64,000 bases of DNA. Source: Ureibacillus sp. FSL W7-1570 (GTDB taxonomy: Bacteria; Bacillota; Bacilli; Bacillales_A; Planococcaceae). The stretch is from positions 186,001-250,000 of the forward strand of contig NZ_CP151979.1 in NCBI RefSeq assembly GCF_038593265.1, in the 5' to 3' direction. Shown here in pieces: positions 18,696 to 38,673 of this stretch; within the stretch, counting starts at the first letter, position 1; each line of letters begins with the position of its first letter. The position numbers and the translations under genes are program-made. The notes beneath the pieces were generated by a model. That model made no database searches and was not told the DNA's origin. It saw only the letters and a program-made list of their open reading frames with translations.

Positions 18696-19961
18696 ATGCA
18701 AACAATATTAGCATTTATCCTCGTATTTGGATTAATCGTTTTCTTTCATGAATTTGGGCATTTTATCTTTGCGAAACGTGCAGGCATATTAGTGCGGGAA
18801 TTCGCCATTGGTATGGGACCTAAGCTTTTTGGCATGAAAAAAGGGGAAACGTTATATACGATCCGATTATTGCCTTTGGGCGGCTATGTCCGGATGGCCG
18901 GTGAGGATTTCGATCAAATTGAGCTGCAACCTGGTTATCGGGTAGGTCTCATATTAAATGATGAAGAAAAGGTCGAGAAGATTTATTTAAATCAAAGTGT
19001 CCGACATCCGAATGTGTTATTTATGGAAGTGGAGCGGGCAGATTTAAATAAAAAATTATGGATTGAAGGTTACGATGAAGAAGAGCGTTTAGTCCGTTTC
19101 GACATTGCCCGGAATGCAATCATTGTTGAAAATGGGGAAGAAACGTTAATTGCACCATATGATCGGACTTTTGAAGCAAAATCGTTATGGCACCGTACAC
19201 TTACAATCTTTGCGGGACCGTTGTTTAACTTTATTTTGGCTTTTGCCATTTTTATATTCCTCGGTATATTCCAAGGAGTGCCAACGAATGAACCGATTAT
19301 TACGGAAGTGGTCGATGACAGCCCAGCCGCTGAAGCAGGGATGGAAGCAGGGGACTATGTAAAATCCATTAATGGAACACCGGTTAAAAAATGGGATGAA
19401 TTGACCGATTTTGTAAAAGAGAATCCTGGAAAAGAGCTTTCATTCATTGTTGAACGGGACGGACAGCAAGTGGAACTATCCGTCGTCCCTGAAACAGTGA
19501 AAATGGAAAACGGTGAAAAAGTTGGACAAATTGGTGTCATGTACCAAAGTCCGCTTGTGAAAAATCCAATCAAAGCCATTGGCTATGGTTTTCAACAAAC
19601 GTGGGAATACACCCTTTTAATTCTACAGGCGCTGGTGTATTTAATTGCAGGGAACTTTACCCTTGATGACTTGGCCGGTCCTGTCGGCATTTACCAATAC
19701 ACCGGGGAAGTGGCAAAACACGGCTTCTTCACCCTTATGTACTGGACAGCGGCATTGAGCATCAACTTGGGAATCATGAACTTGCTTCCGCTTCCAGCCT
19801 TGGACGGTGGCCGCTTAATGTTCTTCGGCATTGAGGCATTGAGAGGAAAACCTGTCGATCGCAAAAAAGAAGGCATGGTTCATTTGGTGGGAATCGTGCT
19901 CTTAATGATATTAATGATTGCTGTCACATGGAACGACATTCAACGATTGTTTTTCCAATAA
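18696..19961 (+). CDS. rasP: Intramembrane site-2 metalloprotease RasP/RseP
   Basis: Zinc protease cutting transmembrane anti-sigma factors and signal-peptide remnants. 421 aa. The metal-binding HEFGH is at residues 18-22 in the first membrane helix and the third ligand is in NLLPLPALDGGRL near the C-terminus. A PDZ domain spans roughly residues 195-270 (PAAEAGMEAGDYVKSING). AAAGGTGG precedes the ATG. Confidence 0.96.
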   Translation: MQTILAFILVFGLIVFFHEFGHFIFAKRAGILVREFAIGMGPKLFGMKKGETLYTIRLLPLGGYVRMAGEDFDQIELQPGYRVGLILNDEEKVEKIYLNQSVRHPNVLFMEVERADLNKKLWIEGYDEEERLVRFDIARNAIIVENGEETLIAPYDRTFEAKSLWHRTLTIFAGPLFNFILAFAIFIFLGIFQGVPTNEPIITEVVDDSPAAEAGMEAGDYVKSINGTPVKKWDELTDFVKENPGKELSFIVERDGQQVELSVVPETVKMENGEKVGQIGVMYQSPLVKNPIKAIGYGFQQTWEYTLLILQALVYLIAGNFTLDDLAGPVGIYQYTGEVAKHGFFTLMYWTAALSINLGIMNLLPLPALDGGRLMFFGIEALRGKPVDRKKEGMVHLVGIVLLMILMIAVTWNDIQRLFFQ

Positions 19962-19976
19962 AAAAATTGCGTCAAG

Positions 19977-20013
19977 AAATCGCCATCCGATGGAACGTCG
20001 GGGCGATTTTTGC
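19977..20013 (+). terminator. Intrinsic terminator after rasP
   Basis: AAATCGCC and GGCGATTTTT flank a ~17-nt interior that can form extra pairs. The following 160 nt hold a possible extended -10 (TGC-TATTCT) before the proS-like gene. No T-box specifier or antiterminator element is seen there, although many aminoacyl-tRNA synthetase genes in this phylum have one. Confidence 0.75.
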
Positions 20014-20173
20014 TTTTTCATCATCAAATTTTAATATTGGATGCATCATTGCAAGATTTATTGATAAGTGAATCAATACAGTAAATAAATATCAAAAAAA
20101 TGTATATACTCAACACTTTAATGGGTATGCTATTCTATTAAAAAAGATAGAAACTGATAAAGGTGGAGCACTT

Positions 20174-21874
20174 ATGAAGCAAAGTGTAACGTTGATCCCA
20201 ACGATGCGGGAAGTGCCACAAAATGTTCATACGAAATCTTGTCAAATGTTGCTGCGTGCAGGATACATACGTCAACATTCAAAAGGCACCTATTCCTATT
20301 TGCCATTGGCGAAGAGGGTATTAAAAAAGATTGAAACAATCATCCGGGAAGAAATGGAGAATAAGGAAGCGATTGAAATTGAATTGCCTTCCATCCAATC
20401 GGTTGATTTGTGGAAGCAGTCAGGGAGACTGCATTTTTTCGATGAAGAATTGATACATTTCCAAGATCGGAACAAACAGGAATTTGTCATCGGACAAAGT
20501 ATGGATGTAATGACTTCCATTGTGCGGGATGAAATAAAAACCTATAAAAAATTGCCGATCACCTTTTACCAATTGCAGAAAAGAATTCGGAGAGAAAAGG
20601 AATTGCGCTTTGATTTATTCCATGCGCAAGAGCCTTTAATGTTGGAAGCTTATTCTTTCCACGACAGCGACGAAAGTTTAAATCACACGGTTGAAGAAAT
20701 GATTGGAACATTTGAACGGATTTTTTCTTATTTGGGATTAAATATTCAAATGGTGGAAGCGGATCCGGGGCCTTTCGGAAATGAATCTTACGAGTTTGTC
20801 ATTTTCTCGGATATCGGACAAGAAATCATTGCTTGTTCAGATCAATCGAATTATGCCGTCAATGCGGAAATCGCAAAAGTATCTACCGAATATGAACGCT
20901 CCACTGAAGAAATGAAGCCGCTTGAAAAGTTGGCTACGCCGAATGTCCAGACGATTCAGGAATTATGTGATGTTTTGCAAGTGGAACCAAGTCAATGCAT
21001 AAAATCACTTGTATTAAACGTCGACGGGGATATCACCGTTGCTTTAGTCCGCGGAGACCACCAGCTGAATTTAAGGAAAATAGCCAAAGTTTTGAATACA
21101 ACGAATGTACAATTTGCCGGTGAAGAAGAAATCAAAAAACACATAGGCTGCTCCAAAGGATCAATCGGCCCGTTAAAACTGCCTATCGATATCAAAGTGA
21201 TCGCGGATAATGGAATCAAATCCGTTGTAAACGCTGTCACTGGCGCCAATGAAGACGGCTATCATTATATCAATGTGAATCCGGATCGTGACTTTGCCAT
21301 CAATCTGTACGAAGATATCCGATTTATCGAAGAGGGAGACCCTTCCCCTGATGGACAAGGAAGCATTCAGTTGAAGAAGGGGATTAAGCTCGGCCGTATA
21401 ATGAAATTAGGAAATCGGTATATGGAAAATATGCAGGCAACCATCGCCGGCGATGAGGGGAAACAAATTCCATTGCAAATGGCAAGTTACGAACTGGAAT
21501 TGACCCGGATTTTTGCCGCACTGGCGGAACAATGCCAGGATGATAGAGGATTTATATGGCCGAAACATCTGTCACCTTATGATTTGCATCTGATGGCGAT
21601 CAATGTTAATGATGAAGCACAATTGAACCTTGTAGAGCAGCTGTACAATATTTTAACCACTTACCGATATGATGTTTTATACGATGACCGGGACGAACGG
21701 GCAGGTGCAAAGTTTGCGGACAGCGATTTGATTGGTTTGCCGATACGGATCACCATTGGGAATAAGGCGTTAACAGGAATGGTGGAAGTAAAAAATCGGA
21801 AAACGGGCGAAACAATCGAATGCGTAAAAGAAGAGTTAATCGACCGTTTAAATGAATTTTTTCGAACACAATAA
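20174..21874 (+). CDS. Prolyl-tRNA synthetase-like protein with degenerate catalytic motifs
   Basis: 566 aa, collinear with bacterial ProRS and in the normal proS position (rasP-proS-polC). The N-terminus (SVTLIPTMREVP, LLRAGYIRQ), the INS editing domain with its conserved Lys region (CIKSL, residues 275-279) and GPLKLP (332-337), and the C-terminal anticodon-binding domain (DDRDERAGAKFADSDLIGLP) are well kept. The class II core is not. The family's THEE is SMDV (109-112); motif 2 RPRFG is replaced by ELRFD; the usual HEF is YEF (206-208); motif 3 GCYGIGVSR is ASYELELTR (437-445). Motif comparisons are from memory of the family. It is probably not a working ProRS; editing in trans or a regulatory role is possible. 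Confidence 0.85.
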   Translation: MKQSVTLIPTMREVPQNVHTKSCQMLLRAGYIRQHSKGTYSYLPLAKRVLKKIETIIREEMENKEAIEIELPSIQSVDLWKQSGRLHFFDEELIHFQDRNKQEFVIGQSMDVMTSIVRDEIKTYKKLPITFYQLQKRIRREKELRFDLFHAQEPLMLEAYSFHDSDESLNHTVEEMIGTFERIFSYLGLNIQMVEADPGPFGNESYEFVIFSDIGQEIIACSDQSNYAVNAEIAKVSTEYERSTEEMKPLEKLATPNVQTIQELCDVLQVEPSQCIKSLVLNVDGDITVALVRGDHQLNLRKIAKVLNTTNVQFAGEEEIKKHIGCSKGSIGPLKLPIDIKVIADNGIKSVVNAVTGANEDGYHYINVNPDRDFAINLYEDIRFIEEGDPSPDGQGSIQLKKGIKLGRIMKLGNRYMENMQATIAGDEGKQIPLQMASYELELTRIFAALAEQCQDDRGFIWPKHLSPYDLHLMAINVNDEAQLNLVEQLYNILTTYRYDVLYDDRDERAGAKFADSDLIGLPIRITIGNKALTGMVEVKNRKTGETIECVKEELIDRLNEFFRTQ

Positions 21875-21927
21875 ATCCAAACAGTCTTGAAAAAATAGTG
21901 TATACTTAATAGATGGCAGTTAAAATA

Positions 21928-22000
21928 GAATTCGCTCTTCTATAGACGAGACGCCTCACCGTCTTGCCTGATAGAGTTTTGCGAATTCTTTTCATTTTTT
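21928..22000 (+). promoter_or_regulatory. Long hairpin in the polC leader
   Basis: GAATTCGC (21928-21935) pairs with GCGAATTC (21981-21988). Inside, TTCTAT/ATAGAG (one wobble) and AGACG/CGTCT extend the structure to a ~60-nt hairpin, followed at once by TTTTCATTTTTT. It may be the proS-like gene's terminator or a leader attenuator for polC, whose SD begins 25 nt later. TATACT at 21901 might be a -10 but lacks a good -35. Confidence 0.65.
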
Positions 22001-22040
22001 ATTCCATCAAGGCATTTTTCAATTAAAGGTGGTGAGTTGG

Positions 22041-25000
22041 ATGGAAAACTCAAAAGCGAGAGAGCGTTTATTGACGCTTTTATCCCAACTGAAACTGACG
22101 GAAGATATTTACATGTCTTTCTTTGAACATGGTGAACTGAACCGATTGACGGTTCATAAGAAAAAGAGAATTTGGAATTTCTCATTGAAGCTGAAAAATA
22201 TTTTACCTTTTCAAGTGTACCAACTATTCTCTTCCCGATTAAAGGAAGAATTTCAACATATTGCTCAAACGGAAATTTCGATACAGACGGAAAATCCGCA
22301 AGTAACAGATGATCTCATTTCCGATTATTGGATGACCGTCGTTGAACGCATCGACGCTTCTCCGCCTGTAAAGAAACGTCTCTCATGTCAATTGCCAACC
22401 TGGACGGGAAGCAAAATGGTTCTTTCCTGCATCTCTGAAATGGAGCAATTGACATTAAAATCGAAGTACCGGGAAATTATTTCGGAAACTTATGCTTGTT
22501 TTGGATTTCCAGCAATTCCAGTGGATTTCAAATTAGTTGAAGCATCGGAGGAAGAAAAGCTGGAGCAGGAAAAATTAATGGAACAGCGCAGGTTGGAAGA
22601 AGAAGAACTGGCCAGACAAGCCATTATAGATTTCCAAAACAGGGAAAAAGAAAAGAAAGAATCTTCGTCTTCCAACGGGCATGCTGAAGAAGGTCCGGTA
22701 CAAATCGGCTCAATCATTCACGATACTGAAATTATGGATATCAAATCGATCGTTGAAGAAGAACGCCGCATCGTCATTGAGGGACATATTTTTGCTGTGG
22801 AAGTAAAAGAGTTAAAAAGCGGCCGTTCCCTTTTGGAAATCAAAATGACCGACTATACGGACTCCATCCTCGTGAAAATGTTTTCCCGCAACAATGATGA
22901 TGCCGAGAAGATGGCCCGCCTGAAAAAGGGCATGTGGGTAAGGGTCAGAGGATCAGTGCAAAATGATACGTTTGTCCGTGAATTGGTCGTGATTGCAAAT
23001 GATATCAATGAAATTCATAAAGAGCCGAGAAAAGACACGGCACCTGAAGGCGAAAAACGGGTGGAATTGCATTTACATACACCAATGAGCCAGATGGATG
23101 CAGTGACACCGGTGGACCGCATTGTGGAACAGGCCGCAAAGTGGGGGCATTCCGCCGTGGCAATTACGGATCATGCTGTCGTCCAAGCCTATCCGGAAGC
23201 CTATGCCGCCGGAAAAAAATATGGCATAAAAATCATTTACGGTTTGGAAGCCAACTTGGTGGATGACGGTGTTCCGATTGCTTATGAAGAACGGCATATC
23301 AAACTGGATGATGCCACTTTCGTTGTATTTGACGTGGAAACAACCGGATTATCCACTGCCTATGATGTGATTATTGAGCTCGCGGCGGTCAAAATACGCG
23401 ACGGCAAAGTGATTGATAAATTCGAACGCTTTGCCAATCCGCACCGGCCGCTTACAGAAAAAATCATCGAATTGACGAATATTACGGATGACATGTTAAA
23501 GGACGCACCGGAAGTGGATGATGTGATCCGTGAATTCCATGAATTTATCGGAGATGCCATTGTGGTTGCCCACAACGCGTCCTTCGATATGGGATTTTTG
23601 TATGCAGCGTACGAAAAAGCGGGCATTACAGGGGTGAAACATCCGGTCATCGATACGTTGGAATTGTCCCGCTTATTAAATCCGACACTCAAAAATCATC
23701 GTTTGAATACATTGTGTAAAAAATACGGCATCGAACTTGTACAGCACCACCGCGCAATCTATGATACGGAAGCAACGGGCTACTTGCTGTTGCAATTATT
23801 GAAAGAAGCCAAAGAAAAAGGAATCGAATACCATGACGATTTTAATAAATTCATGGGCGGAGAAGACTCCTATAAACAATCCCGGCCTTATCACTGTACA
23901 ATTTTAGTGGTGGATAATGCCGGATTAAAAAACTTGTTCAAATTGGTGTCCATTTCCCACACTCAAACATTTTACCGGGTTCCCCGCATCCGCCGTTCCG
24001 ATTTGATGAAACATCGGGAGGGGCTGATTATCGGATCCGGCTGCAGCAACGGGGAATTGTTCGAGACGATGATGAACAAATCTCCGGAAGAAGCGGAAGC
24101 GGTGGCTGAATTCTATGATTATATTGAAGTTCATCCAAAAGCCGTCTATTCCCAATTGATTGACAGTGGAACAATCCATGATGAATGGCATTTGGAAGAC
24201 ATTATCCGCAAACTTGTGAAGCTCGGCAAAAAAATGGATAAGCCGGTGGTGGCGACCGGGAACGTCCATTATTTAAATGAACATGATGCCATTTACCGGA
24301 AGATTTTGGTGGCTTCCCAGGGAGGGGCAAATCCATTAAACCGCTATCCATTGCCGAAAGTGCATTTCCGTACAACGGATGAAATGATCGAAGAATTCGC
24401 CTTTTTGGGAGAGGAAGTGGCGAAGGAAATCGTTGTGACCAACTCCCAAAAAATTGCCGATATGATCGGCGATGTGAAACCGATCAAAGATAAATTGTAC
24501 ACGCCAATCATTGAAGGGTCCGATGAAGAAATTAAACGCTTGACCTATGAAATGGCGCATAAAATTTACGGCGAAAAGCTGCCGGAAATCGTGGAAAAAC
24601 GGCTAGAAAAAGAATTGAACTCGATTTTGGGACACGGGTTTGGGGTGGTTTATTTAATTTCCGCAAAACTCGTGAAGAAGTCCTTGGAGGATGGATATTT
24701 GGTCGGCTCACGGGGTTCCGTCGGTTCATCCCTTGTCGCGACGATGATGGAAATTACGGAAGTCAACCCGCTGCCGCCTCATTACATCTGCCCGAACTGC
24801 CACTATTCCGAATTCTTTACGGATGGTTCGGTCGGTTCAGGATTTGACTTGCCGAACAAGGATTGCCCTGAGTGCGGTACGCCTTTGAACAAGGACGGAC
24901 AGGATATTCCATTCGAAACGTTCCTTGGATTCAACGGGGATAAAGTTCCGGATATTGACTTGAACTTCTCCGGGGAATACCAGGCGCGGGCCCACAACTA

Positions 25001-26369
25001 TACGAAAGTCTTGTTCGGGGAAGATAAAGTCTACCGCGCGGGAACAATTGGTACCGTTGCGGAAAAAACCGCTTACGGCTTCGTAAAAGGTTATGCGAAT
25101 GACAATAATATCAATTTCCGTTCGGCGGAAATTGACCGTTTAGTGCAAGGCTGCACCGGTGTCAAACGGACGACCGGCCAGCATCCGGGCGGTATTCTTG
25201 TTGTTCCTGATTATATGGATATTTACGACTTCACTCCGGTGCAATATCCTGCCGATGCCCAGGATGCGGAATGGCGTACGACCCATTTCGACTTCCATTC
25301 AATCCACGACAACATTTTGAAATTGGATATTCTGGGACATGATGATCCGACAATGATCCGCATGCTGCAAGATTTGACGGGCATCGATCCTAAAACGATT
25401 CCACCGGATGACCCTGATGTCATGGCCATCTTCACAGGAACGGAATCTTTGGGCGTGACGCCTGAACAAATTTTATGCAATACGGGAACTTTAGGTATTC
25501 CGGAATTTGGAACGAAATTTGTCCGTCAAATGTTGGAGGACACAAAACCGAAAACCTTCTCTGAGTTGTTAAAAATTTCAGGCCTATCCCATGGTACGGA
25601 TGTATGGCTTGGAAATGCCAGCGAATTAATCGCAAATAATGTATGTTCCTTCTCAGAAGTCATCGGTTGTCGTGACGACATCATGGTGTACTTAATTTAT
25701 AAAGGATTGGATCCTTCGCTCGCTTTCAAAACGATGGAGTCGGTCCGTAAAGGGAAAGGCTTGACGGAAGATATGGAAAAAGCGATGAGGGAACATGATG
25801 TGCCTGACTGGTATATTGAATCATGCAAAAAAATCAAGTACATGTTCCCGAAAGCCCACGCAGCCGCCTATGTATTAATGGCTGTCCGCGTGGCATACTT
25901 TAAAGTCCATTTCCCTCTTGCCTATTATTGCGCTTATTTCTCCGTGCGTGCCGAAGACTTTGACTTGCCGGCGATGATAAAAGGGGCCAGAGCGATCCGC
26001 ACGAGAGTCGAAGAAATTAACGCAAAAGGCTTGGATGCAACGAAAAAAGAAAAAGATTTATTGACCGTTCTTGAAATAGCCCTTGAAATGTGCGAAAGAG
26101 GCATGAGCTTCAAAAATGTGGATTTGTACAAATCGAAAGCCACAGAATTCGTCATTGAAGGGAATTCCCTCATTCCGCCTTTCAATGCGATCCCTGGTTT
26201 GGGGGAAAGTGTGGCGAAACAAATTGTGGCGGCAAGGGAAGAAAGGGAGTTTTTATCGAAAGAAGATTTGCAAACACGGGGCCGCGTTTCCAAATCTTTG
26301 ATTGAATACATGGAGCAATTGGGCGTGTTGGAAGGTCTGCCTGATGAAAATCAGCTGTCTTTATTCTAA
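22041..26369 (+). CDS. polC: DNA polymerase III PolC-type alpha subunit
   Basis: Replicative polymerase with built-in 3'-5' proofreading. The ATG at 22041 follows AAAGGTGGTG; 1442 aa, typical. Domain order: N-terminal domain, OB fold, PHP domain ([30 protein letters not shown]) with an inserted DnaQ-type exonuclease ([29 protein letters not shown]), then the palm/fingers. A zinc-binding element (CPNC…CPEC) is present, as are the catalytic acidic residues in PDIDLNFSG and [12 protein letters not shown]. All key residues are there, in contrast to the gene before it. Confidence 0.98.
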
Positions 26370-38033: not shown

Positions 38034-38673
38034 GTGCGCCTGGCATGGGTGTAATCTATAGGGTGTAAGTCCCGAACTGTGAAGGCAGAAGTAACAGTTA
38101 GCTTAACGCAAGGGTGTCCGTGGTGACGCGGAATCTGAAGGAAGCGAGCGGCAAACTTCCGGTCTGAGGAACACGAACTTCATATAAGGCTAGGTATCAT
38201 TGGATGAGTTTGCTAAACAAAACAAAGTCCTTTCTGCCAAAGGTGGTACAGAGTAAATGAAGCAGATAGATGGAAGGAAAGATTACATTCTTACCCGGGG
38301 AGGTCTGGCGGATATGTGAAGTACGCTTCATAACCTACTTAGTGATAAGTAGCTGAACCGTCAGAAGTCAGCAGAGGTCATAGTATTAGTTGGTTTAGAA
38401 CTACTAAGAAGGACCGAACAATTAAGAGAGAATAGCCCTTGGCATTCAGTGAGTCATGATGAACACAGAAAACGTAGTACCTCACTTGAGGAAGGAAGCG
38501 GTGAATCCCGTGGGAGACCTCTTGGAGGGTGGAGTGACCACTGGCATAAAGAGAACAGCTATTCACGGAAGTTATAAAGACTTGCGTCAATCATCTTAAT
38601 TGAACCGCCGTATACGGAACCGTACGTACGGTGGTGTGAGAGGACGGGAGTTAATCGCTCCCTCCTACTCGAT
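38034..38673 (+). mobile_element. Group IIC intron lacking a reverse transcriptase (O.i.I1-like)
   Basis: A ~640-nt ribozyme without an intact intron protein. The 5' end is GTGCGCCTGGCATGGGTG; domain I contains CCCGAACTGTGAAGGCAGAA and GGTCTGAGGAACACGAACTT; GTCAGAAGTCAGCAGAGGTC marks the domain III area. Domain V starts near 38601 (GAACCGCCGTATACGG, with CGC in place of AGC as in class C, then CGTACGTACGGTGGTG), and domain VI ends CTCCTACTCGAT. From memory it closely resembles the Oceanobacillus iheyensis IIC intron. Domain IV (about 38425-38600) holds only short ORFs, none with RT motifs. The 3' boundary is good to 1-2 nt. Confidence 0.92.

Follow-up and report, generated by a model that had tools for sequence, protein, structure and literature searches.

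At the proS locus of Ureibacillus sp. FSL W7-1570, a bacterial-type prolyl-tRNA synthetase (ProRS) of 566 amino acids (P0001; 20174..21874, + strand, of the 64,000 nucleotide stretch analysed here, hereafter the window) is encoded that is degenerate in its charging site and, judging from its residues, very probably no longer charges tRNAPro. The editing (INS) and anticodon-binding domains of this protein have been retained, and a type I (archaeal/eukaryotic) ProRS is encoded elsewhere in the genome. The account we favour, on balance and by a modest degree, is that the resident ProRS lost prolylation after the arrival of the type I enzyme and survives as a protein that edits Ala-tRNAPro in trans.

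The reading frame of P0001 is uninterrupted in the translation of the window, and a ribosome-binding-like AAGGTGG (20160..20166, + strand) lies ahead of its ATG. The gene is flanked by an upstream rseP-like gene (18696..19961, + strand) and a downstream polC-like gene (22029..26369, + strand), markers of the ancestral proS locus which we take to be rseP and polC. Within the sequence covered at each locus, these two genes flank proS in 143 of the 146 loci checked, with one of the two neighbours present in each of the remaining three, and the insertion of an odd ProRS at a new site is thus unsupported. P0001 matches the NCBIfam bacterial ProRS model NF006625 over its whole length (598.4 bits; cut-off 558) and scores above the cut-off of TIGR00409, its alignment covers residues 1-563 of the E. 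faecalis ProRS 2j3l, and its class II core, tRNA_edit and anticodon-binding Pfam domains all exceed their cut-offs. An AlphaFold2 model built from 50 sequences (mean pLDDT 88.4, weakest around residues 71-150) superposes on 2j3l with a TM score of 0.94, and the predicted fold is the ProRS fold. In overall sequence, domains and fold, P0001 is like an active bacterial-type ProRS. An initial annotation of this DNA had described an intact 566 amino acid frame, collinear with bacterial ProRS and not a decaying pseudogene, which is borne out by the open frame and the whole-model match to NF006625. The marks of a pseudogene are absent, the frame being intact and dN/dS not near 1, and both a pseudogene and a sequencing error are ruled out by the open frame, by purifying selection in 12 pairs of degenerate genes and by the recurrence of the pattern across many genomes. 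Since P0001 lies above the NF006625 equivalog cut-off, annotation would assign it the name 'proline--tRNA ligase' and thus call it an active ligase. No T-box or other Rfam RNA is found at gathering thresholds near either ProRS gene (window and L004), and a promoter scan of 19850-22060 by consensus matches returned no sigma-70-like site on the + strand and fewer sites than in shuffled sequences. One terminator-like hairpin is located after rseP by consensus match (19986-20002). Elsewhere in the window, three Rfam pieces of a group II intron (RF02001, RF01998 and RF00029) occur within 560 bases (38117-38673, + strand); no reverse-transcriptase-like ORF of at least 150 amino acids lies inside this interval, and the intron thus looks ORF-less or a remnant.

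In the proline-binding loop of P0001 (residues 104-114; 20483..20515, + strand), the alignment places S-MD opposite THEE, such that, relative to E. coli K-12 ProS, T109 is replaced by S, H110 is absent, E111 is replaced by M and E112 by D. The motif 2 region (residues 134-165; 20573..20668, + strand) carries the changes R143E, R150H, R152Q, F154P, K157L and D158E, with R139, E141 and R145 kept, while the motif 3 region (residues 433-458; 21470..21547, + strand) carries G437A, C438S, G440E and G442E, with R445 kept. Relative to E. coli ProS, P0001 has E143 for R144, Y206 for H208 and S438 for C443, and a second one-residue gap occurs at the G-PFG loop. T109 and C443 of the E. coli enzyme presumably line the proline pocket. 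The features that the initial annotation had listed, namely an altered Pro-binding site with one residue lost (aligned as IGQS-MDV for LGPTHEEV), ELRFD for RPRFG, YEF for HEF and ASYELELTR for GCYGIGVSR, are all present. The sister gene (L135) also lacks R139 and E141. R144 of E. coli ProRS touches G72 (PMC10164551), and when it is mutated the kcat/KM of tRNAPro charging falls by a factor of more than 1000 (PMC12152171).

Conservation was scored outside the family on 48 ProRS of other Bacillales, at least 47 of which agree at each of 216 positions. Of these positions, P0001 has changed 55 of 143 in the catalytic domain, 6/41 in the INS domain and 3/32 in the anticodon domain; the excess in the catalytic domain over the editing and anticodon domains together (9/73) is significant (Fisher p = 6.5e-5). 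A scale derived instead from 61 canonical genes of the family gives 56/150 catalytic, 2/45 editing and 2/34 anticodon departures. Among 17 core synthetic-site positions P0001 departs at 13 and is thus unlike active bacterial-type ProRS in the residues conserved across the proline loop and motifs 2 and 3, whereas 127 of 128 canonical genes keep all 17 and the remaining gene departs at one. Ordinary variation of an active ProRS is ruled out by this comparison, which also disposes of the reading, raised with the initial annotation, that the altered motifs are normal variants.

The INS editing domain (residues 229-396 by our delimitation; 20858..21361, + strand) includes a PF04073 match at residues 255-371 (95.1 bits; cut-off 25.5). 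K277 of P0001 (codon at 21002..21004, + strand) aligns with the editing lysine K279 of E. coli ProRS, and D345 and H364 align with D350 and H369, which we take to have roles in editing. With an INS domain and the equivalents of all three residues, the P0001 sequence is that of a candidate Ala-tRNAPro editing enzyme. The anticodon-binding domain (residues 459-566, limits likewise ours; 21548..21871, + strand; PF03129, 57.8 bits, cut-off 21) appears nearly unchanged. Both domains had been described as normal in the initial annotation, down to the run DDRDERAGAKFADSDLIGLP, which is present, and the few departures counted above agree with this. K279A is an editing-defective mutant of E. coli ProRS (PMC3973320), and almost all members of the INS superfamily are reported to have the equivalent lysine, which contacts A76 (PMC10164551). 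In the E. coli enzyme, acceptor-stem variants of E. coli tRNAPro affect INS editing at most 2.7-fold and human tRNAPro 5.1-fold, while the anticodon changes G35C, G36A and G36C have effects of 8.6- to 20-fold (PMC3973320); INS editing is also reported to rely on the anticodon domain (PMC11295145). Because editing is anticodon-dependent and hardly acceptor-stem-dependent in this published dissection, the parts lost by P0001 correspond to those needed for charging and the parts kept to those needed for editing.

The degenerate genes remain under purifying selection, and the extra constraint on the catalytic domain is gone. Rough Nei-Gojobori counts, with dS as high as 2, put the median dN/dS of 12 close degenerate pairs at 0.093 (catalytic), 0.100 (INS) and 0.053 (anticodon), compared with 0.023, 0.059 and 0.037, respectively, in 45 canonical pairs. 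Constraint has thus been lost approximately fourfold in the catalytic domain and 1.4- to 1.7-fold in the INS and anticodon domains; the INS figure, approximately 1.7-fold, weighs against the trans-editing account. P0001 and its sister L135 give 0.142, 0.093 and 0.053 for the three domains. The median ratio of catalytic to INS dN rises from 0.31 in canonical to 0.91 in degenerate pairs (Mann-Whitney p = 1.2e-5, with related pairs partly non-independent). No internal stops occur in the 54 degenerate frames scored. The low dN/dS, rough as the counts are, indicates that the proteins are in use, and the orthologue and dN/dS comparisons proposed with the initial annotation thus find the orthologues open and under purifying selection.

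A type I ProRS gene is located at G000:C1:619362-620792 (592 bits; cut-off 437) in the genome searched, a single contig of 3.28 Mb. Its product aligns lengthwise to the T. thermophilus ProRS, contains the TSET, motif 2 and motif 3 stretches and looks intact, as expected from the initial annotation, which held that a second ProRS must exist. P0001 as the sole ProRS of the genome is ruled out by this gene. The type I locus has no PF04073 (tRNA_edit) match, and a genome search with P0001 revealed no further bacterial-type ProRS. Two freestanding INS-superfamily proteins are encoded, one a YbaK above the cut-off and the other far below it. Three ordinary-looking tRNAPro-UGG genes are present, with no unusual tRNAPro among them. 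The E-type human ProRS has served, with alanine at high concentration, to prepare Ala-tRNAPro (PMC3973320), and ProRS is described as capable of editing in trans (PMC4787780). In the mechanism that we propose, the type I ProRS, which is without an INS domain, would make Pro-tRNAPro, while P0001 would edit in trans as a full-length protein, with the anticodon domain binding the tRNAPro anticodon and the dead catalytic domain serving as a scaffold. The INS domain, through K277, D345 and H364, would hydrolyse the Ala-tRNAPro that leaves the type I enzyme, and this hydrolysis may be the reason for retention of the gene. The retention of R445 and R139 is more than a mere scaffold easily explains.

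The family of the window comprises 261 genomes in 19 genera, of which 178 have a type I ProRS above the cut-off. Bacterial proS is found in approximately 235 genomes, being absent from genera g14 (19 genomes) and g4 (four genomes) and from G245, G249 and G010. A single-sequence search of the genome contigs with P0001 alone returned no relative; an alignment-based search listed 80 matches, the highest-scoring among at least 588. In total, 182 full-length proS genes were scored, one per genome, with the fragments L060, L117 and L118 and approximately 50 genomes omitted. The genes fall into two groups separated by a gap, 128 departing at no more than 7.7% of the 143 catalytic positions and 54 at 14% or more. 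The 54 degenerate genes belong to the genus of the window (22), g18 (31, mostly Sporosarcina) and g10 (one). All 54 degenerate genomes encode a type I ProRS, as do 68 of the 128 canonical genomes, and none of the 60 scored genomes without type I has a degenerate proS. In this sample, type I occurs without degeneration, whereas degeneration never occurs without type I. Catalytic departures exceed INS departures in 53 of the 54 degenerate genes and likewise exceed anticodon departures in 53. The pocket replacements vary by lineage, with S, A, L, D or M at T109 and S, R, Y, V and others at C438. L166 (G062) and L081 (G171) have lost only one and two of the 17 core residues, with 21% and 14% catalytic departures, respectively, and are possibly early stages of the same process.

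The same loss of the loading site seems to have arisen on several independent occasions. On a quick maximum likelihood tree (LG+G4) of rseP and the first 400 residues of polC, with 118 of 147 rows usable, at least eight changes between the canonical and degenerate states are needed, falling to six without the two mildest rows and likewise to six when genes with at least four core losses are compared with those with no more than one of 17. By majority state in eight groups, T109 departs in seven, C438 in six and G440 in five, while R445 is kept in all eight and K277 in seven. The link between type I and degeneration rests partly on shared ancestry, and independent pairs all agree with it but are too few for significance (sign test: the few informative pairs, on average 2.6 of eight, agree and none disagrees, median p 0.25). 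Since type I is present beside many canonical genes, the simplest reading of the order of events is that type I was gained before proS degenerated.

Several other explanations bear on why such a protein is kept. P0001 might still be a ligase, either weak for proline or altered in its amino acid or tRNA specificity, as would be in keeping with its score above the NCBIfam ligase cut-off and with the retention of R445 in 53 and R139 in 46 of the 54 degenerate genes; the mildest cases (L166, L081, L047, L099 and L100), with only one to three of the 17 core residues lost, may still be active. We consider this quite improbable for P0001, given the loss of 13 core residues here and the further absence of R139 and E141 from L135, and the differences in pocket replacements between lineages look like loss rather than a shared new specificity. 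The gene might alternatively be a relic, made redundant by the gain of type I and decaying slowly, with the INS and anticodon domains lagging behind. A graded series from canonical through degenerate genes to clean deletion can be drawn up, polC directly following rseP in seven of the eight proS-less genomes examined (approximately 0.9 kb separate them in the eighth), and catalytic and anticodon departures correlate across the degenerate genes (Spearman 0.78, uncorrected for ancestry). Against decay stand the median dN/dS of 0.05-0.10 in all three domains of the 12 degenerate pairs, far from 1, the stop-free frames and the sharing of degenerate cores by whole clades, and we regard a relic as unlikely.

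P0001 could also be a non-catalytic binder of tRNAPro that senses, stores or presents it, or acts via a partner, with the INS domain kept for structure or to hold the tRNA end, an explanation that we rate as unlikely, though less so than the previous two. It would accommodate the conservation of R445, and a clade of ten proS-locus genes in genus g18 (Sporosarcina; L119-L128), with stop-to-stop frames of 538-547 amino acids and 32-35% identity to P0001, also speaks for it. In this clade most charging residues are lost, K277 is lost in nine of the ten genes and H364 in all ten, departures affect 47-50% of the scored anticodon positions, and the whole fold remains under purifying selection (dN/dS of 0.04-0.11 in three pairs). 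Editing thus cannot explain retention in the 538 amino acid clade, whose proteins have probably lost both charging and editing and serve some other use. In the degenerate genes outside it, however, K277 is kept in 41 of 44 (the exceptions being L056, L057 and L115), D345 in all 44 and H364 in 37, residues that binding alone would not require. The loss of proS without a visible substitute editor is likewise compatible with a binder. Among 17 proS-less genomes, no compensating ProXp-ala is seen, judged by the number and length of PF04073 matches and not by subfamily: 13 encode one or two freestanding PF04073 proteins, as do their proS-bearing relatives, and genus g4 (four genomes) yields no match. 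Deletion without visible compensation indicates that some members of the family can do without editing, which, like the 538 amino acid clade, weighs against the trans-editing account. In these g4 genomes (G012-G015), which lack a bacterial proS, the type I enzyme is the only ProRS found, and INS-type editing of tRNAPro is apparently absent. Of the three possibilities raised in the initial annotation, trans-editing fits best and the charging of something else worst. More tentatively, some lineages, the 538 amino acid clade and perhaps others, may have moved past editing to a new non-catalytic function on the ProRS body, such as sensing of tRNAPro or its charging state, with editing-only proteins of the P0001 type as the intermediate. 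A path from canonical to editing-only and on to another use or to loss would fit all of the results.

If trans-editing is the role of P0001, it would work like ProXp-ala or the archaeal ThrRS-ed, yet it belongs to neither. P0001 is like the bacterial-type ProRS with INS, such as E. faecalis 2j3l and E. coli ProS, in domain order, fold, editing residues and anticodon domain, but differs in the 13 changed core residues. It resembles ProXp-ala, which edits in trans beside a ProRS without INS (PMC3973320), in predicted substrate and chemistry; ProXp-ala is, however, a single-domain protein that reads the acceptor stem (PMC3973320), whereas P0001 has three domains in its 566 amino acids and would read the anticodon. 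ThrRS-ed, which is without a catalytic site, edits in trans beside a second synthetase (PMC9976931, PMC11295145), and the likeness, an analogy of kind, lies in the kept editing and anticodon domains, the lost charging site and the presence of a second synthetase. ThrRS-ed is truncated, threonine-specific and derived from ThrRS, while P0001 derives from ProRS and has a catalytic domain that is present but disabled, apparently several times over in the family. In the Anabaena ThrRS pair T1/T2, full-length apo-T1 can act solely as a trans-editor for the second synthetase (PMC4787780), as proposed for P0001, although T1 is an active enzyme in which this state depends on zinc (PMC4787780) and in P0001 it would be permanent and encoded. 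The Streptomyces ProRSx is similarly a diverged bacterial ProRS beside another ProRS (PMC9437257), but charges proline onto an unusual tRNA (PMC9437257), while P0001 is without the charging residues. A literature search retrieved no description of a charging-dead, editing-intact ProRS or of the ProRS pair of these bacteria, which is weak evidence of novelty as subscription papers and preprints lay outside its scope.

If the proposed reading is true, these observations carry a warning that proteins which do not charge tRNA can bear the name of a proline--tRNA ligase. P0001 and its relatives would then allow the requirements of a ProRS for charging to be told apart from those for editing, and a comparison of related species in which proS is canonical, degenerate or deleted would make the need for Ala-tRNAPro editing testable. 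The family would then represent a replicated natural experiment in which an essential enzyme is dismantled function by function, the old synthetase being pared down in at least six separate lineages, apparently to a proofreader, after another synthetase has taken over charging.
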